From: Desulfovibrionales bacterium
Lineage (GTDB): Bacteria; Desulfobacterota; Desulfovibrionia; Desulfovibrionales; Desulfomicrobiaceae
Assembly (NCBI GenBank): GCA_012727515.1
Contig: JAAYGZ010000210.1
Location: 1-8,197, forward strand
Reading direction: 5' to 3'
DNA length: 8,197 nucleotides
Shown: one piece after another, positions 534 to 8,194 of the stretch
Layout of the letters: every line of letters begins with the position of its first letter
How positions within the stretch are numbered: position 1 is the stretch's first letter
Made by a program: the position numbers and the translations under genes
The notes under the pieces: generated by a model
The model's input: only the letters and a program-made list of their open reading frames with translations
Databases searched by the model: none
Told to the model about the DNA's origin: nothing

Positions 534-1484
534 TCATACTGCATAATCATTACGACAACGATATACTCCAGCCTTTTCATTGTAATCTGCATACCAAAGC
601 ATTTGGTGCAGATCTGTTAAACGATGTGGTCCTATCCACTGTCCAATCCCCAGCATAGCTTCTACAAAACAAAATGGGGTTGTAGTATCCCTGGCATTTA
701 ACACCGCTCCTGGTTCCTGCACGTCTGTCAAGGCTGCATAACCAAGAGGAATAGGCACGATCCATTCCCTGCTGCGATCATGCTCCCATGTAACGGTATT
801 TTTTTCTTCATCTTCCCACTTTGCCTGATAATTGAGCCTGGAAAGATCAAGCCAGGCATCAAGACGAGTTGTGCTGGTATCTTGCCTTACAAGCTGCTGA
901 TAGTGTTTTTCCAAAAGATCCGAGCGTTCAACCAGACAGAAACCAGGCAAAAGTGTACGCAGAATTGAACGAAATAGTCTGGTCTGTTTTTCTTCATCAT
1001 CGTCTATGACCCAAAGCAGAGGAGCACGGGAAAAAGATGCAGGCAAAATGGTTCCGCCAGCAATGCGCATGGATGTCAGAATATCCTGAATATCCCGCAA
1101 CGCCTGATCCTGATCCTGAACTGGGGCGGTCAGCAAACCCCCATCCACTGCAAAAACTAAAGAAAGATCCAGATGCACACGGCCTTCTTCAACAATGGAC
1201 GCAGATTTGCCATCCTTGCCCACAGGATTGCGCGACAAAGAAAAAGATTTGGTAAATCCGCCTGTACTCACCTGGGGCGCAAAATCATGACACACAACAC
1301 CAACAGCATGAAAAATAAGAGGGTAGCGGTTGTTTAACTTGCGTTCTAACGCCCACATAAAACCCAAAAAAGCGGTCATGGATGGAAAACCCCAGGTCAT
1401 GGGGGAAGAAATGGCATTGGCATTTTGTATGCGTAAGCGTGGCAAAATCAACACGCCGTCACTTTTGCGCAACAGATCAGACAT
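534..1484 (-). CDS. csy2: Csy2 (Cas5f), type I-F Csy complex tail subunit
   Basis: This 316-residue protein is the Cas5-type subunit that, with Csy1, forms the tail of the Csy complex and holds the 5' handle of the crRNA. Family length is about 320-330 residues, so it is full length. The N-terminal block [39 protein letters not shown] (residues 4-42 in part), the FSLSRNP segment near residue 81 and the C-terminal region around [11 protein letters not shown] (273-283) and [12 protein letters not shown] (289-300) are typical of Csy2. It starts within the last codons of csy1 (8-base overlap), with the strong ribosome-binding site GGGAGG shortly upstream, which suggests coupled translation and a fixed Csy1:Csy2 ratio. 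Repression or activation of the csy1 promoter would also affect this gene. Confidence 0.96.
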
Positions 1485-2808
1485 GTTGACCTCCCTTTAA
1501 GATCATGCTCGCATCAGAATGAATATGACGCTGCCATGCTTCATCATCGAAAAAATCAGCCCAATATGCATGCTCAATATCACCCAGGGGTATGTTTTGG
1601 CCAAGCCCGGCATTAAGCCAGTTTGCAAATCGGTGCTTTATTTCTCCTGCCCATTCCATGCGTTGCCAGAGATCCGCAAACTCGGCATCCAGAACAGAGC
1701 GTCCAGGATCGAGCCAGCACATCTCTGCTTCTGGCAAAAGGCAGCGTGAGTCTTTGCTCCAGCCAGCAGGTAAATTGCGGTATTCCGCAGCAAGGCTATG
1801 TATGTCACCCAGGATACAGGAAAGAACATTATCACGTTTGTCACGGGTTGCCTGGTTGGAGGGAGGGTCTGACTCAAGAAAAAATCGCAATTCCCGAACC
1901 AAGGTCCGTACTTCTTTGTTGCGACCAAAACGATCAAATATGGATGTGATTCTGTATGGGGGATGCAAAAAACGCGAACGCCACACAGGCGGGCATGATG
2001 CCAAAAGGTAGTTCATGCCTTTGCGTTCACTATTGAGCTGGCTGATATTTTGTGGCTTGGTTCCGCCAAATTTCTGCACAGCAAGGTCAGGATATGTATG
2101 TAAAATATGCTCACAATGTTGGTTATTTTTTTTGGCCTCACGAGCCAATTTGGTTTTTTCTCCAAACCGATGCTCCTGAATGGTAGTATAGATGTGCTGC
2201 GTCAGGGAGCTGGGATATAAAGGGGCAAGGAGATGAAAGCCCTGGTCATCATGAGGATCATCCCGGACAAGCCAGTACATTTGCTTGGCCAATGTGTGGG
2301 AAGCATATTCTTCTGGACTTGTGGACAAAAAACCAAGGAAAGACTCAATCCATTCGTGGGCAATACCTGGATCATCAACCTGCATGGCTGCAATCATGGC
2401 GTCTTTGTCCTTGTCCATCCAGGTCAGCAAGGTCTTTTGTTCATATTCCTGAGTTAAAAATTTATTCACATCAAGGGCAGCAGCATTACCAACAACATCA
2501 GTTGCATGATCGCGCAAAAGATGGCTGCCAATAAGTTCGTGTTCTGATAACTGCTTTGGCTTGCAGTATAAGTTAATGCCCCGTGCATCTGGATTGATGG
2601 CTTTTAGAATATGTGTGGCCGCCTGAATTTGTCTCACTCGTTTGGCTGCATCGGCCAACCAGGCCTGACGGTCATATTGGTTATGGATTTTGTCCCAATT
2701 GGGGTCATCTGGAGTGAGTTTTTCCAGCCTGGCATCTCTGCGGGCAGCAAGAAAGTCATCAATGACAGCGCGTAGTCCACGTACAACTTCCGGATCAGGT
2801 TGGTTCAT
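1477..2808 (-). CDS. csy1: Csy1 (Cas8f), large PAM-reading subunit of the Csy complex
   Basis: This 443-residue protein is the large subunit of the type I-F surveillance complex; the P. aeruginosa protein has about 434 residues. It pairs with Csy2 at the crRNA 5' handle and reads the double-stranded PAM (CC/GG). Diagnostic blocks are GNAAALDVNKFL (107-118) and FGGTKPQNISQLNSERKG (247-264). From the alignment I recall, N108 corresponds to the PAM-contacting N111 of P. aeruginosa, and K251 and N254 correspond to the PAM-wedge/PAM residues K247 and N250. All are retained, so PAM reading should be intact. The ATG is preceded by GGAGGTG with a short 2-3 base spacer. It is the first gene of the csy operon, downstream of a promoter at 2857-2886. 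That promoter contains a site matching the spacer of the upstream mini-CRISPR, so csy1 is the likely target of autorepression. Confidence 0.97.
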   Translation of the reverse strand: MNQPDPEVVRGLRAVIDDFLAARRDARLEKLTPDDPNWDKIHNQYDRQAWLADAAKRVRQIQAATHILKAINPDARGINLYCKPKQLSEHELIGSHLLRDHATDVVGNAAALDVNKFLTQEYEQKTLLTWMDKDKDAMIAAMQVDDPGIAHEWIESFLGFLSTSPEEYASHTLAKQMYWLVRDDPHDDQGFHLLAPLYPSSLTQHIYTTIQEHRFGEKTKLAREAKKNNQHCEHILHTYPDLAVQKFGGTKPQNISQLNSERKGMNYLLASCPPVWRSRFLHPPYRITSIFDRFGRNKEVRTLVRELRFFLESDPPSNQATRDKRDNVLSCILGDIHSLAAEYRNLPAGWSKDSRCLLPEAEMCWLDPGRSVLDAEFADLWQRMEWAGEIKHRFANWLNAGLGQNIPLGDIEHAYWADFFDDEAWQRHIHSDASMILKGGQHV

Positions 2809-2856
2809 AACACCTCCGTCAAGGTAGGTTGGTTGTCAGATGAAATGTTGGTTATA

Positions 2857-2886
2857 GTTATAAGCATATTCCATTCTATGGGTCAA
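2857..2886 (-). promoter_or_regulatory. Predicted sigma70-type promoter of the csy operon
   Basis: On the minus strand the -35 box TTGACC (2886-2881) matches five of six consensus bases. After 18 bases comes the -10 box TATAAC (2862-2857); reading the -10 as TTATAA gives a 17-base gap. A second TATAAC (2856-2851) follows in tandem. Transcription would start near 2850, giving a leader of about 40 bases before the csy1 ATG at 2808. This is the only convincing promoter in the 252-base gap between cas2-3 and csy1. The leader holds two copies of AACCAAC (2853-2847 and 2834-2828), of unknown meaning. There is no reading frame of note between promoter and csy1. The last two C residues at the -35 end also form the CC PAM of the mini-CRISPR target site. 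Confidence 0.75.
2860..2881 (-). promoter_or_regulatory. Protospacer-like operator with CC PAM inside the csy1 promoter
   Basis: On the minus strand, CC at 2881-2880 is followed by ATAGAATGGAATATGCTTAT (2879-2860). This matches the mini-CRISPR spacer ATAGAGTGGAAGATGCTTCT (3018-2999) at 17 of 20 positions, with mismatches at positions 6, 12 and 19. CC immediately 5' of the protospacer on the non-target strand is the established type I-F PAM. Type I complexes flip out every sixth crRNA base, so mismatches at 6 and 12 should cost nothing. The complementarity stops where the second repeat begins. The site fills the gap between -35 and -10, so a bound Csy complex would block RNA polymerase. That it is a repression site is inference from this geometry; the match itself is read directly from the sequence. 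Confidence 0.85.
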
Positions 2887-2900
2887 TCCGTTTTGCATAC

Positions 2901-2923
2901 ATTCCTTTCATAGGAATTTCATA
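2901..2923. repeat. Short inverted and direct repeats upstream of the csy1 promoter
   Basis: On the plus strand, ATTCC (2901-2905) and GGAAT (2913-2917) form a small inverted repeat with a 7-base gap. TTTCATA occurs twice, at 2906-2912 and 2917-2923, spaced 11 bases apart, which is about one helical turn. The cluster starts about 15 bases upstream of the -35 box, a position where an activator could bind. It is short and lies in AT-rich sequence, so chance is a real alternative. Confidence 0.3.
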
Positions 2924-2970
2924 AAAAATTGGATGAATTAGCAAGAAATTTGCTTTGTCCACGAAAATCT

Positions 2971-3046
2971 CTGCCAGGCTGCCTGTTCGGCAGTAAAAAG
3001 AAGCATCTTCCACTCTATTTTCTAAGCTGCCTTTACGGCAGTTGGC
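2971..3046 (-). CRISPR. Degenerate two-repeat mini-CRISPR with a 20-nt spacer
   Basis: Two type I-F repeat-like units lie on the minus strand directly after cas2-3. The E. coli-type I-F consensus is about GTTCACTGCCGTACAGGCAG followed by CTTAGAAA. Repeat 1 (3046-3019) matches 24 of 28 bases and keeps hairpin CTGCC-GTAAA-GGCAG (3041-3027) and handle CTTAGAAA (3026-3019). Repeat 2 (2998-2971) matches 21 of 28 and keeps hairpin CTGCC-GAACA-GGCAG (2993-2979), but its handle is degraded to CCTGGCAG. The first four bases of both repeats also differ from consensus. The spacer (3018-2999) is 20 nt instead of 32. No further repeats follow, so this is not a normal array; those usually lie beyond csy4, outside the window. 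The conserved parts are exactly those needed to make one processed RNA. Confidence 0.88.
2979..3026 (-). ncRNA. Predicted 48-nt crRNA-like regulatory RNA (CreR type)
   Basis: Cas6f cuts I-F repeats directly 3' of the GGCAG stem. Applied to the two repeat units here, this releases a 48-nt RNA: 8-nt handle CTTAGAAA, 20-nt guide ATAGAGTGGAAGATGCTTCT, and a 20-base 3' part ending in the CTGCC-GAACA-GGCAG hairpin. A standard I-F crRNA is 60 nt (8+32+20), so only the guide is shorter, by 12 nt or two 6-nt Csy3 units. The guide matches the csy1 promoter with a correct PAM. The inferred role is to guide the Csy complex to its own promoter and repress it without efficient cutting. Cas-regulating RNAs made from degenerate repeats (CreR, and CreA in CreTA modules) are known in other type I systems. 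No clear own promoter was found; the RNA may come from read-through of cas1-cas2-3. Confidence 0.78.
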
Positions 3047-3060
3047 AGAAGAGTTCTTGA

Positions 3061-6000
3061 TTATTTTTTCTCTCCAAACCCCAAGGCAGGATGAAAGGTC
3101 CAGCCCTGGGTGCTTTGAGGCAGGGAGAGTGTGCCAAATTTTTTAGCGCATGTATGCAAATCCATATCCATTTCTTCAGCTAATCCCGTCAATATCTCCA
3201 TATAACTAATCTGTCCCCATGGGCAGACCATGCCTGAAAAATTGATACCAATTTCTGTCAAAAGCTCATCTTGGGGTTGGGGAGCATAAGAGGTATGGGC
3301 ATAGTCACGCTGAATTTTGTTGAGCACCCAATGCTGTTCATCTTCATCAGGCAAAAGGGCTAAATCTACCTCTGGCCTGGTCTGTTTACGAAAGGGCTGT
3401 TCTTTTTGTAAAATACCACTAAGCATACTGCCGGGCATACGCCACCAGCTATATGCGCCTACAGATGAAACTGGTTTTTTCCCAGCCCGCAATTCCCTCG
3501 CACTTAAGGGACGTACCGCTTCACCCTGCATAATACGAGCAACTCTGGCATGTTCTAAATCTACCAGACTTTGCGCGGCATTGGGTTTTTCAGGAGCCAC
3601 TATACGTGGACGTGCAGTAATGATTTCGTAGTGTTCCGGGTGTAGAATATGTTTCAGGTCGTGATGCTGTAATTTAAATATGCTGGCTTCACTTTCAAAG
3701 CCTGGTTTTAGAAAGGCGGCTTTGCCTGGATTTATGATACTTTTAACATTGCGAGACAAAATAAAAATATTAGGCTCAGTGCATGTACATGGCCGGTGCC
3801 TGCGGATTCGACCAGCTAATTGAATAATAGAGCGCATGGACGATGGCTCAACTACTGCCCAATCATAATCATGATCGCGCCCCACTTCAGTCACTGGCGA
3901 GCCTAAGACCATAAAGATATGCTCCAGGTTGGGCTCAGCATCCAGTAACGCACGAATATCTGGTGTATCAAAAACAGCCAGAGGGTTTTTGCGATTAAGT
4001 ACCCTGTCTAATCGCTGCTCAATTGCAGAGCGCATAAGGAGGGGAAATTGCGAATGATATACACAAAGATGGATACGGATCGGCCCTGATATTTCCTGAG
4101 TAAATAAATAATGGGCTATTTCTCGTAAGGGCCTGATATTGGCCATGCGAACCAGGCCAAAGCTGACCTTGGTTTGCGTTATGGGGTCAGTGCTATGGTG
4201 TTTTGTGTGCAGGTCCATAGCCCCTTTCAAAATGATCTGGGAAAAATTTTCGCAAGTTTTTTTAAAATCCCCGGAAATGCTGTCAGGGACCAAAAGCAAG
4301 GCTCCTTTTCGCAATGCAGGTGCCAGGCTGATCTGTTCTATTCTTTTGTTCACAAAGTCTGCGTGGCCCTGCATGAATACAGTCACATCTGAACAGTCGT
4401 TGGTGTGAACATGGAACTCATCAGTCCATATAGAACAGACAGACAGCGGTGCGTTTAATTGCTCTCCGCGATTGTGCTGAAAAATACGTCGCCCTTCCAG
4501 GTAGGCTTCAAACATGCCTGTAACCAGGCCCGGCGGGAGAGTTGCAGAAGAAATAAGTACTCTTGAGCCAAGCATTCCCGCCCAGTGAACCAGGCGGGCA
4601 ATAGCAGGCAGATCGTCAATGTCGTAGTCGTCAAGCTCATCTAAAACCAGATCACTGGTGAGCAGACGCAACATAGGCACGATCTGGTGTCCTCCCCGAA
4701 GGCTTTCTGTGGCCGGAATCAAATGATCAATGGTGCAGGAAACAATAGGTGCCGCTAGCATTGCCCGAACCTGAGCATCTTTAACTATGCGACTTAACAC
4801 TGGGTGGGCATCCATATTGCCCTCAAAAACAACATGGCCATCACCAGGCAGCAAGCTCTGCGCTGATTCCGCACCAAAAGATTCCCCAGAGGATTCCTGG
4901 GAAAAATGTTCAAACAATGCACGGCTTGCTGATCCACCCACACAAACAGCCACTTCATTTTCACTCAGATTCAGACGTTCACGGTACTCTCGCCCGGTTT
5001 GTAATGTCAGCGTCCGTAACCCCAGGGCAAAGGCGCAGCGCATTCCCTGGCTCTCACCTGCCAAGGCATACATGATACGAGCATTACCCAATGTTTTACC
5101 ACACCCTGTTGACGCCATATTGACGATAAAGGCTCCTTGGTTTGCTGCCTTTTCTCGGATACTCATTGCTGCATCAAAAGCCTTGTCCTGCCATTTGAAA
5201 CGCTCTGTTTTTGTACGCCTGCGCAGCCCCTTGTGCCGGACCAGACGTGGAAGCTCATTTGTTAGCTTTGGCAAGGCATGTGCAATGTGGCCACAAAGTC
5301 GTTCAACGCCGAGCAAATGCTCCTCAAGAGCTTGGTTAAGGACGCCTTTGGCAGTGTTGGCAAAAAATTGTTTGCTGTCAGGAGCTGTTTTGCGGTTTTC
5401 AGAAAAATCAATACCGGAGAAGCTATGGTCAGCCAAGGTCAGGGATAGCCGGGCAAGGTGCAACACATACTGATTATCAAGTTGTATAGGTCGGCTGGAT
5501 AAACGTTCCAGAAGTTTTTTTGCATGTTTGGCAGCACGCTCCTGCCAGGAGGATACATCAACAGGGAGTTTTTTCGCAAACTCCCAATACTGCGTAACTT
5601 TGTGCAGATCAGACAGGTCTGACGGCTCGTTCCAGAAAGCAGTGATGTTATTTTGAACATTTTCAAGCATGGCTGCCTGCAAACCAGTGTTTTTATCGCC
5701 AGGGCGCACAGGAAGACGGTGATGAGTAATAATAAGCCAGCCAATGACCCGGGCCAGCGGTGGCAATGCAGGAAAAGGGTTGGGCGAGAGAGCACCTTGC
5801 CCATCGGATTGTAAAGACTGTAAACAGTCGGGGGTGGAGATGTTTTGTTCTGCCAGACGTGTGAGCCATGTTACATCATCATCCTGGCCAACAAAGGCCT
5901 GGAAAAGGCGCAGGGAAATCCATTCATGGCGAATCAGATTGCGCTCCATACTGGGCTTTTTTAGCCGTTGCTGGAATTGGGTGCAGGCTTTGCCCAGGTC

Positions 6001-6369
6001 ATGCCAGAGAGCAGCAATGGATGATAGGAGATGGATTTCCGAAAGCGTGCGCCAGTCGTTTTCATCTTTGGAGCGTAAAATATTTCTCGTTGTCTCGTTT
6101 GTCGGCACTACCCCTTGTGCATTAAAACGGCTTGCTGCGCCAACTATCCACAGCAGCTCAGTATGATCTACTCCCCGAATCCAATAACAGGCCACAGCAG
6201 TATTTTTGCGTGCAGTTTGTCGGAGTAAACGATGCAATGTATCACGGCCGGCCTTTGTGATGGGAGTTTGCCACGTCCGCACCCCGCGACGCTGGGAAAA
6301 TTGGTCCAAAATGCGCCGCGTCTCTTTAATGGCATTACCGGTGCACTCAGAAATAAGAAGGATATTCAT
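3061..6369 (-). CDS. cas3: Cas2-3 fusion: adaptation subunit plus HD nuclease/helicase
   Basis: This 1102-residue protein is the Cas2-Cas3 fusion that defines type I-F. Residues 1 to about 95 are the Cas2 part (MNILLISECTGNAIKETRRI, then QRRGVRTWQTPITKAG and ACYWIRG), which joins Cas1 dimers for spacer integration. An HD nuclease follows: WHDLGK at 122-127, H148 (IRHEW), H216-H217 (THH) and D314-H315 (LADH) are the likely metal ligands. The SF2 helicase has Walker A STGCGKT (420-426), the DEAD-like box DELD (577-580), SAT (608-610), EVGRD (828-832) and motif VI QLAGRIRR (850-857). The C-terminal domain extends to 1102; P. aeruginosa Cas3 has about 1076. All motifs look intact. AGGA lies seven bases upstream of the ATG, which overlaps the cas1 stop (ATGA). 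It degrades DNA recruited by the Csy complex. Confidence 0.97.
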   Translation of the reverse strand: MNILLISECTGNAIKETRRILDQFSQRRGVRTWQTPITKAGRDTLHRLLRQTARKNTAVACYWIRGVDHTELLWIVGAASRFNAQGVVPTNETTRNILRSKDENDWRTLSEIHLLSSIAALWHDLGKACTQFQQRLKKPSMERNLIRHEWISLRLFQAFVGQDDDVTWLTRLAEQNISTPDCLQSLQSDGQGALSPNPFPALPPLARVIGWLIITHHRLPVRPGDKNTGLQAAMLENVQNNITAFWNEPSDLSDLHKVTQYWEFAKKLPVDVSSWQERAAKHAKKLLERLSSRPIQLDNQYVLHLARLSLTLADHSFSGIDFSENRKTAPDSKQFFANTAKGVLNQALEEHLLGVERLCGHIAHALPKLTNELPRLVRHKGLRRRTKTERFKWQDKAFDAAMSIREKAANQGAFIVNMASTGCGKTLGNARIMYALAGESQGMRCAFALGLRTLTLQTGREYRERLNLSENEVAVCVGGSASRALFEHFSQESSGESFGAESAQSLLPGDGHVVFEGNMDAHPVLSRIVKDAQVRAMLAAPIVSCTIDHLIPATESLRGGHQIVPMLRLLTSDLVLDELDDYDIDDLPAIARLVHWAGMLGSRVLISSATLPPGLVTGMFEAYLEGRRIFQHNRGEQLNAPLSVCSIWTDEFHVHTNDCSDVTVFMQGHADFVNKRIEQISLAPALRKGALLLVPDSISGDFKKTCENFSQIILKGAMDLHTKHHSTDPITQTKVSFGLVRMANIRPLREIAHYLFTQEISGPIRIHLCVYHSQFPLLMRSAIEQRLDRVLNRKNPLAVFDTPDIRALLDAEPNLEHIFMVLGSPVTEVGRDHDYDWAVVEPSSMRSIIQLAGRIRRHRPCTCTEPNIFILSRNVKSIINPGKAAFLKPGFESEASIFKLQHHDLKHILHPEHYEIITARPRIVAPEKPNAAQSLVDLEHARVARIMQGEAVRPLSARELRAGKKPVSSVGAYSWWRMPGSMLSGILQKEQPFRKQTRPEVDLALLPDEDEQHWVLNKIQRDYAHTSYAPQPQDELLTEIGINFSGMVCPWGQISYMEILTGLAEEMDMDLHTCAKKFGTLSLPQSTQGWTFHPALGFGEKK

Positions 6370-7385
6370 TGTATTGTCCTGGCGACATTTATAGCCAGAT
6401 CTTTGAGCGTATCAATCATAAAATCAAGGGCTTCATTACGAGTCAGGACATCAATACACGACTGGCGGAAAGTTTGTTCATCATCACCACGCATGGCAGA
6501 AATAAAGGCCTGGGGGAGAATAAGCGCATCTTTGACTAAATCAGCCACGTCAAAAACCAATCCGCCCCGTCTGGTTTTTCCATGCATTACAGCCAAACCA
6601 TGCGGGATGCCCAGCACCCAGGTCGCCGTAGCTCCAAGGCCATAGGCAAGATAGTTGCCATGATCGAGCAGCCTATTGGCCGGGTCAGTGCCAGTGCCTC
6701 GCTTGGCGCGTTTAAACTGGCCATAACCAACGCTTCGTGCTGCCAGCTTGAAAAGTTCCTTTGTCAGACGTGCTTCTTCTGCGAGCAGCGCCATTGGCTC
6801 ATGTATGTGCTGGATAGCTTGGCGCGTAGAGCCCACAAGAGATTCTAACCGCTCGTAGTCAACTGAAAAATCCTGATCGCCAAAAGTTTTTGGATGCCCC
6901 CAACTGCGCATGATAAAATCTAGCCGTCCATCCTGAAGTGATTTAGCAGCAGCCAGCCTGGCAGCATCGTCAAACCAAAATTTGACCCATGCCTGAAGAT
7001 ACTGAGTTGGGCGGTATTCACTTTGCGGCGAAAGCCATGAAACTTCAATGTCATATTCGTTGGCACTGAGTAATGGTGTCCCTCCGCCACCACAAAATCC
7101 AACCATGACGCCAGCCTTGGCCAGTTCGCGCATGGCTGCCTGAGTAATTGAAGTTCCGGTGCCAAGTAAAATTGACGTTGTGTTGGCAATGGGTATGTTC
7201 CAATAAAGCGATTTTTTCCCCGCCTCTGTAACATACTCCACCCGACCGCCGTGGACTAATACACGACAATGCTCAAGATAATAGATGTTAGCCCGCTTGG
7301 AGTGCAGGATTGTCTTGAGATCTGATGCCATAAGATCATGTTTGCGCGTATGTGCCCTGCTCTCTGCTGTTCTGCTTTGCTCCAT
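6366..7385 (-). CDS. cas1: Cas1 (Cas1f), CRISPR integrase
   Basis: Type I-F Cas1, the integrase that inserts new spacers together with the Cas2 domain of Cas2-3. The segment from LKTILHSKRANIYYLEHCRV to DFMIDTLKDLA is nearly collinear with the 324-residue P. aeruginosa protein. The expected active-site residues are present: E204 (LLAEEARL), H268 (AVMHGKTRRGG), and D279 and D282 (VFDVAD), numbered from the chosen start. The start at 7385 (339 residues) was chosen because GGGGGA (7397-7392) lies six bases upstream. A TTG at 7436 would give 356 residues but has no ribosome-binding site. The ATG at 7331 would give 321 residues, closest to the family length, but also lacks one. Its stop overlaps the cas2-3 ATG by four bases, so the two are probably translated together. 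Confidence 0.95.
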   Translation of the reverse strand: MEQSRTAESRAHTRKHDLMASDLKTILHSKRANIYYLEHCRVLVHGGRVEYVTEAGKKSLYWNIPIANTTSILLGTGTSITQAAMRELAKAGVMVGFCGGGGTPLLSANEYDIEVSWLSPQSEYRPTQYLQAWVKFWFDDAARLAAAKSLQDGRLDFIMRSWGHPKTFGDQDFSVDYERLESLVGSTRQAIQHIHEPMALLAEEARLTKELFKLAARSVGYGQFKRAKRGTGTDPANRLLDHGNYLAYGLGATATWVLGIPHGLAVMHGKTRRGGLVFDVADLVKDALILPQAFISAMRGDDEQTFRQSCIDVLTRNEALDFMIDTLKDLAINVARTIQ

Positions 7386-7391
7386 AACAAA

Positions 7392-7397
7392 TCCCCC
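7392..7397 (-). promoter_or_regulatory. Ribosome-binding site that sets the cas1 start
   Basis: GGGGGA on the minus strand, six bases before ATG 7385, can pair with the anti-Shine-Dalgarno CCUCC through one G-U pair. Neither the upstream TTG (7436) nor the downstream ATG (7331) has such a site, so this element decides the start. Between here and the palindrome at 7490 I see no convincing promoter for cas1, although one must be expected in this divergent region. Confidence 0.55.
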
Positions 7398-7489
7398 AGG
7401 CCTGAGTTGCGGTGTATGGGATGAAGGTTTGGACAAGTGAGGGAGATGGTAACATGGCTATTGGACTGAGTTCCAGAAAAATGCTTGTC

Positions 7490-7515
7490 ACTAATTAACT
7501 AATAAGTTAGTTAGT
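7490..7515. promoter_or_regulatory. 26-bp palindrome, probable operator of the TetR regulator
   Basis: On the plus strand ACTAATTAACT (7490-7500) and AGTTAGTTAGT (7505-7515) are inverted copies with one mismatch in 11, separated by AATA. It lies directly upstream of the TetR start codon at 7520 and overlaps the alternative GTG start at 7514. Palindromes of this size in front of their own gene are typical of TetR autoregulation. TTGTCA (7485-7490) may be a -35 box running into the left arm. If the -10 is TAGTTA (7508-7513), the transcript would start almost at the ATG. Because cas1 is divergent and starts about 105 bases away, the regulator could in principle also affect cas1, but nothing visible proves this. 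Confidence 0.65.
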
Positions 7516-7519
7516 GGTC

Positions 7520-8194
7520 ATGAAGAAAACAAATCGCAAATACTCACACCAAGGTCGCCCTCCGGCAAAGGAGAGCGAAGGCCGGCGCGAAAGAATTCTG
7601 GACAGCGCCCTGACCCTATTTGCCGGGCACGGCATCGCCGGAACAACCATTGCGCAAATAGCCAAGGACTCCGGGGTCACCTCAGCCATGGTGCATTACT
7701 ATTTCGGTAACCGCGAAGGTCTGTTGGACGCCATTGCTGCTGAACGGCTGGCCCCTGCCATAGAATACATCTGGGCGGGAGTTTCGGAGGAGGCTCTGGC
7801 GGAACCGCGCCGGATTGTCACAGAATTTGTAGATCGCCTGCTCGAAGCAGTGGAAAAGATGCCGCAACTTCCACAGTTATGGAGCCGCGAAATACTTAAT
7901 CCGGGCGGTATGCTGCGGGAGCGGTTGCTGACACTTGTTCCATTGGAGCGTCTCGCCACTGTGATCAGTGCCCTTTCCCTGGCGCAACAGAAAGGAACCG
8001 TAAACCCCATGATCAGTCCACCTCTTGTAATGACATCCATCATGGCCGTGGTCATGCTTCCGATAACGGCGTGGGACATGCTCGGTAAAATTCCGATTAT
8101 GCCTGCCTTGGACAAAGAAGTTTTACGGCATCACGCGCTCGCGCTGCTGCTGGACGGACTATGCCCTGAAAAGAGTCGGGAGGGTCAGCAATGA
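7520..8194 (+). CDS. TetR/AcrR-family transcriptional regulator
   Basis: A 224-residue one-component repressor with the family's N-terminal helix-turn-helix: RRERILDSALTLFAGHGIAG at 22-41, then TTIAQIAKDSGVTSAMVHYYF at roughly 42-62, then NREGLLDAIAAERL. The C-terminal ligand and dimer domain (about 75-215) is mostly helical and I cannot assign a ligand. The ATG at 7520 is preferred, giving MKKTNRKYSH; a GTG at 7514 would add two residues (MV) and lies in the palindrome. Neither has a good ribosome-binding site, so the mRNA may have a very short leader. The stop codon overlaps the ATG of the next gene (ATGA), indicating an operon. TetR genes ahead of membrane-fusion or efflux genes are common, but the partner cannot be read here. 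The segment looks richer in GC than the cas genes and is probably not part of the CRISPR system. Confidence 0.9.
   Translation: MKKTNRKYSHQGRPPAKESEGRRERILDSALTLFAGHGIAGTTIAQIAKDSGVTSAMVHYYFGNREGLLDAIAAERLAPAIEYIWAGVSEEALAEPRRIVTEFVDRLLEAVEKMPQLPQLWSREILNPGGMLRERLLTLVPLERLATVISALSLAQQKGTVNPMISPPLVMTSIMAVVMLPITAWDMLGKIPIMPALDKEVLRHHALALLLDGLCPEKSREGQQ

Follow-up and report, generated by a model that had tools for sequence, protein, structure and literature searches.

A type I-F mini-CRISPR whose guide pairs with the upstream region of csy1 is a likely CreR-type autorepressor of the csy operon

The closest relatives of the element described here are crRNA-like guides that reportedly turn Cas effectors on their own genes. 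Liu et al. are said to have described such a cas-regulating RNA, CreR, in 2023 (Cell Host Microbe). Standalone repeats forming mini-arrays against cas8 promoters were reportedly found by Shmakov et al. in 2023 (NAR gkad495), one I-F1 case being tested as a regulatory guide. The natural single-guide RNA of Cas9, which Workman et al. (2021) are said to have shown turning the effector on its own promoter, differs in belonging to type II and in having the form of a tracrRNA instead of a mini-CRISPR. The best reading of our element is a CreR-type autorepressor of the csy operon, CreR and CreTA being kinds already known.

According to the excerpts available, CreR has been reported for types I-B, I-E and V-A (PMC13131331) and is a crRNA-like RNA that is partly complementary to a cas promoter and responds to crRNA abundance and anti-CRISPRs (PMC13131331, PMC12737573). 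The present element shares with it the crRNA-like unit, the partial match to a cas promoter region and the absence of a coupled toxin gene, but it belongs to type I-F, faces the upstream region of csy1 and carries its guide between cas2-3 and csy1. No description of a type I-F CreR was found among the titles listed and the excerpts available, an absence that says little; the excerpts of PMC11035748, PMC12669027, PMC10910872 and PMC12373910 held citations only or nothing on the subject. In the type I-F CreTA of Acinetobacter, the Csy complex is the repressor (PMC10097628, in excerpt). That system is alike in its location in the cas3-csy1 gap, its 20-nt guide, its CC PAM and a mismatch at position 6, but there the guide acts on the RNA toxin creT, which it silences and to which it is divergently oriented (PMC10097628), whereas the mini-array here runs with the operon, has csy1 as the next gene and has no toxin-like frame that we could find. 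Racr, the single repeat units of phages, are likewise repeat-like RNAs that engage Csy proteins; they differ in consisting of one repeat, in being phage-encoded and in forming aberrant Cas subcomplexes rather than matching a promoter (PMC10651486, PMC11656645, both in excerpt).

The window, that is, the whole stretch of 8197 bases analysed, is one entire contig of an assembly of 2.32 Mb that is fragmented into 453 contigs and 93.9% complete. Its minus strand carries a type I-F locus with cas1f, cas2-3 (cas3f), csy1, csy2 and the first part of csy3. NCBIfam profiles identify the Cas genes without ambiguity, and five of the six genes expected of such a locus, which include csy4, scored above the cut-offs. 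csy4 was not found in the host assembly, possibly owing to an assembly gap, as the contig ends inside csy3. A pattern search of the assembly outside the window found no other I-F repeat, bar two matches with three mismatches that we took for chance. That neither csy4 nor a pattern-detectable array was found in the assembly is a point against the regulatory reading developed below. The true start of cas1f probably lies inside the listed open frame, because this frame begins at TTG and the family match sets in only at residue 43. A TetR-like gene at 7514-8194 (+), divergent from cas1, gave several weak family matches, none above the cut-off. Between the last base of cas2-3 (3061) and the start of csy1 (2808) lies a gap of 252 nt. 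The features of the locus are collected in Table 1.

Table 1. Coordinates of the genes, the mini-CRISPR, its target and the predicted csy1 promoter in the window
Feature	Position	Strand	Basis or remark
cas1f	6366..7436	-	NCBIfam TIGR03637, match from residue 43
cas2-3 (cas3f)	3061..6369	-	NCBIfam TIGR02562
Upstream repeat-like element, hairpin CTGCC-GTAAA-GGCAG (3041-3027)	3019..3046	-	Exact pattern match at 3019-3041
8-nt 5' handle CTTAGAAA	3026-3019	-	Part of the upstream repeat-like element
20-nt guide (spacer-like) ATAGAGTGGAAGATGCTTCT	2999..3018	-	Sequence
Downstream repeat-like element: 20-nt 3' handle, hairpin CTGCC-GAACA-GGCAG (2993-2979)	2979..2998	-	Rfam, folds
Predicted -35 of csy1, TTGACC, sharing one base with the PAM	2881..2886	-	Prediction only
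CC PAM directly 5' of the target	2880..2881	-	Sequence
Target site ATAGAATGGAATATGCTTAT	2860..2879	-	17/20 identical to the guide; mismatches 6, 12, 19
Predicted -10 of csy1, TATAAC, first 3 bases inside the target	2857..2862	-	Prediction only
csy1 Shine-Dalgarno GGAGG	2813..2817	-	Read from sequence
csy1 (cas8f), first gene of the csy operon	1477..2808	-	NCBIfam TIGR02564, 366 bits
csy2 (cas5f)	534..1484	-	NCBIfam TIGR02565
csy3 (cas7f), cut by the contig end	1..537	-	NCBIfam TIGR02566

The two-repeat mini-CRISPR occupies 3046-2979 of the minus strand and begins 14 nt past the stop codon of cas2-3. Rfam CRISPR-DR4 matched both repeats, with E 4e-4 for 3042-3019 and E 0.32 for 2993-2978, both below the curated cut-off. 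The centroid fold of the mini-CRISPR contains both hairpins; the minimum-energy fold keeps them and adds a stem that would sequester part of the guide. The guide length of 20 nt presumes a 3' handle of 20 nt, as in I-F crRNAs. As in the crRNA-like unit of CreR, repeat-like hairpins flank a short spacer and a 5' handle is present. A canonical I-F CRISPR array was ruled out by the two dissimilar repeats and the 20-nt spacer, canonical arrays having near-identical repeats and spacers of ~32 nt.

An earlier note on this DNA had claimed that the guide matches 17 of 20 bases of a site upstream of csy1, with mismatches at 6, 12 and 19 and CC in front. On re-reading, the letters and coordinates of guide, site and PAM were all correct, and the match was reproduced in the sequence comparison. 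The second-best match of the guide in the window, on both strands, was 13/20. When the guide was shuffled with its dinucleotides preserved, 2 of 20,000 shuffles reached 17 with CC in the 190-nt region on both strands, and 1 of 4,000 guide shuffles reached 17 when CC was not demanded; no shuffle of the 190-nt region itself (0/4,000) was as good as the real match. Across the host assembly, no CC-flanked site other than that at csy1 is free of mismatches at the non-flipped positions among 1-17; the next best has two.

The predicted csy1 promoter consists of TTGACC, an 18-nt spacer and TATAAC. Its consensus score is 10/12, and it was the sole pair scoring at least 9/12 in a csy1-strand scan of the gap. 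By itself, this promoter call is weak. Promoter-like pairs scoring at least 10 occurred in 149 of 2,000 (7%) mononucleotide shuffles of the gap, and a second promoter scan that required T as the final -10 base listed none in the gap. The target ends 51 nt ahead of csy1, and the predicted promoter reads directly into csy1. The statement of the earlier note that the site fills the interval between -35 and -10 proved nearly exact: 17 of the 18 spacer bases are covered, but three bases of the site run into the -10. As in CreR, a PAM-flanked partial match is found in the promoter region of its own cas operon, the promoter being a predicted one. Among the 12 loci with a pairing guide described below, a csy1-strand promoter-like pair touches the target in six (window, L042, L022, L030, L034, L026), in varying register, and no such pair was found touching the target in L021. 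Conservation of the promoter as a rule was dropped, since six of 12 loci with differing register are not strong enough.

A guide placed in this way might also recruit the Csy complex for some purpose other than repression, such as activation or primed spacer uptake from the locus, and in an I-F system partially matched guides have been reported to prime such uptake (PMC5059440, in excerpt). However, polymerase would be blocked by binding at this site, which covers the predicted -35/-10 spacer, and priming would presumably harm the cell when aimed at its own operon. We consider such a role extremely unlikely, and repression of csy1 is the reading followed below.

The cas3-csy1 gaps of 36 type I-F loci, the window and 35 others, were compared. 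Three of these loci came from genome contigs, eight were stretches from genomes of the same genus or phylum, 13 came from the 17 plasmid records with a csy1 match, one from the family of G302 and 10 from the order, two of the latter (L050, L051) being below the Csy1 cut-off. A second plasmid search with the Csy1 of L029 as query returned the same number of records, 17. The gap was located by a single pipeline; three of the 36 loci yielded no gap length, and 600 nt upstream were scanned instead. The loci were picked by csy1 likeness, so that the counts given here are not prevalences.

A stem-plus-handle detector found a mini-array in nine loci, with guides of 20 (window), 20, 21, 23, 24, 26, 26, 26 and 31 nt, all shorter than 32 nt. 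The mini-arrays of L030, L034 and L038 were first spotted by eye; L030 was also recovered by a looser hairpin rule, and all three by a scan for the exact 8-nt handle. For 12 of the 36 loci, a CC-flanked site to which the guide pairs lies within the same cas3-csy1 gap, the pairing being 14-16/17 in 10 of them and only 12/17 in L026 and L034. Nine of these 12 loci (not the window, L021 and L042) have guide letters different from those of the window, and seven of the nine pair at 14-16/17. The scan of the 36 gaps for the exact handle CTNAGAAA gave 13 handles: nine guides pair at 14/17 or better, one at 12, and the three that do not pair are the second repeats of L029 (11) and L032 (6), and L036 (8). 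Shuffled guides reached 14 in 1 of 3,900 cases. L004 and L026 have imperfect handles and were found by the stem detectors only. Of the 12 loci whose gap measures 200 nt or more, 10 have a pairing guide, as do one of the 21 with a shorter gap and one of the three that yielded no gap length.

Several loci gave no pairing. Handles with up to three mismatches brought up extra hairpins in L025, L029 and L011 that do not pair (best 9-10/17), and a hairpin of L033 found by the looser rule stayed at 10/17. The long gaps of L043 and L033 yielded no pairing guide in the stem, looser and handle scans. L024 has a diverged repeat-like stretch and L023 one repeat only, and neither was counted as paired. Both congeners with csy1 (G004, G014) were without a mini-array.

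The survey also turned up features of the gaps themselves. In L030 (Psychrobacter plasmid pA11BP5), L034 (a Methylobacter plasmid) and L038, the stems are diverged or bulged and the CTTAGAAA handle is intact; their CC-flanked targets sit 79, 30 and 202 nt before csy1, respectively. The cas3-csy1 gap of L025 (4465-5499, Vitreoscilla filiformis plasmid) holds a small frame, a VapC-family toxin gene and an XRE regulator along with the mini-array, and that of L033 a DUF1778/GNAT pair, with no mini-array detected. As for viral csy1 relatives, the pattern found none in viral contigs; two records under one Acinetobacter phage name came up.

The specificity of the pairing was evaluated with swapped, shuffled and real spacers. 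In an 8 x 8 guide swap, own pairs reached 12-16/17 and the 56 swapped pairs averaged 8.6; the one swapped pair that reached 14/17, the L004 guide on the CC-flanked site 1803-1819 of L029, is unexplained. Shuffled guides attained the score of the real guide in 0 of 3,000 cases for seven of the eight loci and in 6 of 3,000 for L026. When 360 distinct canonical spacers were compared with the nine mini-array gaps, none of the 3,240 comparisons reached 14/17. The best score of 410 spacers against the gaps of their own nine loci was 12; 12 loci had been examined in this test, three of which gave no spacers. Judged from sequence, the guide-target pairing is strongly supported.

Type I-F Cascade flips out each sixth base and is little affected by a mismatch at such a position (PMC7305327, PMC12774636, in excerpt). 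The earlier note had regarded the mismatches at 6 and 12 as falling on such ignored positions, which was borne out across the loci and fits the I-F mismatch data excerpted from PMC7305327. Within positions 1-12 of the 10 exact-handle guides, mismatches occupy 13 of 20 cells at 6 and 12 and 0 of 100 elsewhere (Fisher 9e-13). For all 12 guides, the corresponding figures are 17/24 at 6 and 12 versus 1/120 at 1-5 and 7-11; they become 15/22 versus 1/110 when the window is left out and 13/18 versus 1/90 with one locus per related group. A mismatch rate of ~70% at 6 and 12 is near the expectation for free drift. Position 14 was mismatched in six of the 12 guides for no apparent reason. This mismatch pattern is the footprint that reading by a Csy complex leaves.

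At position 6 the target carries A in 11 of 12 loci, and at position 12 in 10 of 12, otherwise T, although the guide base varies; in the window, positions 6 and 12 correspond to 2874 and 2868, with T at position 12. Within-target shuffles gave p 1e-4 for position 6 and 1e-3 for position 12, and one or other of the 17 columns reached 11 in 0.2% of shuffles, all of these values coming from the very data in which the pattern was spotted.

The window, L021 and L042 carry homologous mini-arrays, and the csy1 genes of L021 and L042 are 61% and 60% identical to that of the window. Guide-target pairing fades past position 17, and the covariation comparison proposed in the earlier note covered positions 1-17. 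Between the window and L021, the guide differs at 7, 9, 12, 15 and 16 and the target at the same five. Between the window and L042, the guide differs at 3, 5, 9 and 16 and the target at those and at 6; between L021 and L042, the guide differs at 3, 5, 7, 12 and 15 and the target, again, at those and at 6. Each of the three comparisons thus contains four compensated positions and no one-sided change at a non-flipped position: all changes outside 6 and 12 are two-sided and keep the pair. The earlier note had made its reading depend, among other things, on conservation of the pairing in relatives, and L021 and L042 indeed retain PAM, register and pairing through compensatory changes.

The order of these loci on the Csy1 tree is (L042,(L021,(window,L017))). 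L017 belongs to the same genus as the window and has a gap of 37 nt; given this order, L017 most simply lost the mini-array, a reading that rests on three alike guides. On the whole Csy1 tree, mini-array presence needs 10 changes, and shuffled labels need 10.4 on average, 250 of 500 being as low. This patchy presence indicates that the mini-array comes and goes. Such loci have probably also moved between lineages, since L021 comes from another family of the phylum.

The patchy distribution, the two congeners without the element and the Rfam scores of the two repeats are what would be expected if the mini-CRISPR were a decayed array or a chance direct repeat with no function. The compensated changes in the three homologous loci, the pairing in nine more and the confinement of mismatches to flipped positions, on the other hand, require selection on the pairing. 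We therefore regard decay or chance as very unlikely.

Another reading would make the mini-CRISPR the antitoxin half of a CreTA, whose guide silences not csy1 but a gene for a small RNA toxin lying in the cas3-csy1 gap. The mini-CRISPR lies in exactly the same gap as the proven CreA of Acinetobacter type I-F, and the excerpted description of that CreA gives a 20-nt guide with mismatches at 6, 11 and 18 (PMC10097628). L029 is one of the strains named in that paper, and its guide and 33-bp toxin frame were recovered by our scans. The frame, which fits the published creT, served as positive control in a test for Shine-Dalgarno-led start codons between target and csy1. The same test found no toxin mini-ORF with a Shine-Dalgarno sequence downstream of the target in the window, where this interval is only 51 nt, and L021, L026, L034 and L038 were likewise without such a start. 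Moreover, the predicted promoter leads straight into csy1. The element is thus uncoupled from a toxin gene, as in CreR, by a test that a toxin without such signals would escape. We consider a CreTA in the window improbable, and prefer repression of csy1.

Short Shine-Dalgarno-led candidate frames were found between target and csy1 in L042, L022, L025 and L032; the candidate of L030 is csy1 itself, with an in-frame TTG one codon upstream. L004 has a short frame with paired AGA codons that resembles the toxin-like frame of L029. This frame of L004 (7854-7889, Chromohalobacter canadensis) is Shine-Dalgarno-led, lies past the target and reads VVSYHIVRRAE, as compared with MFSTHLVRRV of L029, and L004 is likely a type I-F CreTA in a halophile. 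Across the loci, the start-codon test suggests two sorts of I-F gap element, the window belonging with the sort that faces csy1.

The mini-CRISPR of the window likely guides its own Csy complex onto the predicted csy1 promoter and so turns the csy operon down. We infer repression of csy1 and its feedback by analogy: the small RNA, the repression and the response to crRNAs and anti-CRISPRs follow the CreR model as excerpted from PMC13131331 and PMC12737573. Csy4 would cut the guide RNA, possibly out of the cas1-cas2-3 message, since the mini-array lies only 14 nt after cas2-3. The guide RNA would then load a short Csy complex; by the rule L = 6N - 4, a 20-nt I-F spacer corresponds to four Cas7f (PMC7296934). 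An R-loop of at most 20 bp would occupy the -35/-10 spacer and block RNA polymerase, and binding would block csy1 transcription because the site overlies the predicted spacer. The chromosome would not be cut, as an R-loop far shorter than 32 bp would not be expected to recruit Cas2-3. PMC7296934 reports that I-F complexes whose spacers lack 6 to 18 nt form R-loops without triggering Cas2/3, that the same holds for I-F Cascade when its spacer is cut down to 20 nt, and that degradation stays off with R-loops of up to 26 bp. It also reports that I-F binding weakens with spacer shortening, so that the 20-nt guide would bind less tightly than a full-length one. When the complex is plentiful and ordinary crRNAs are few, the csy operon would be shut; when crRNAs or anti-CRISPRs draw the complex away, it would open.

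A fuller scheme can be put forward tentatively, and we hold it to be possible rather than probable. The mini-CRISPR might be the 3' tail of the cas1-cas2-3 message, from which Csy4 would cut the 20-nt guide to give a four-Cas7f complex that binds and cannot call Cas2-3. Guide and promoter would change in step at every base but those at 6 and 12, where A would be kept in the target whatever the guide base, the flipped base being read or having to melt easily. How strongly the locus transcribes its nuclease and adaptation genes might then tune the csy operon.

The autorepressor reading would bring another type I-F lineage under CRISPR self-control by crRNA-like guides, the pairing being backed by evolutionary evidence at the level of single bases. 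The footprint of a PAM, pairing at 1-5 and 7-11 and free positions 6 and 12 offers a simple sequence signature for finding such regulators, and the same footprint separates them from decayed arrays. For anti-CRISPR biology, it predicts that phage inhibitors should turn the csy operon on.
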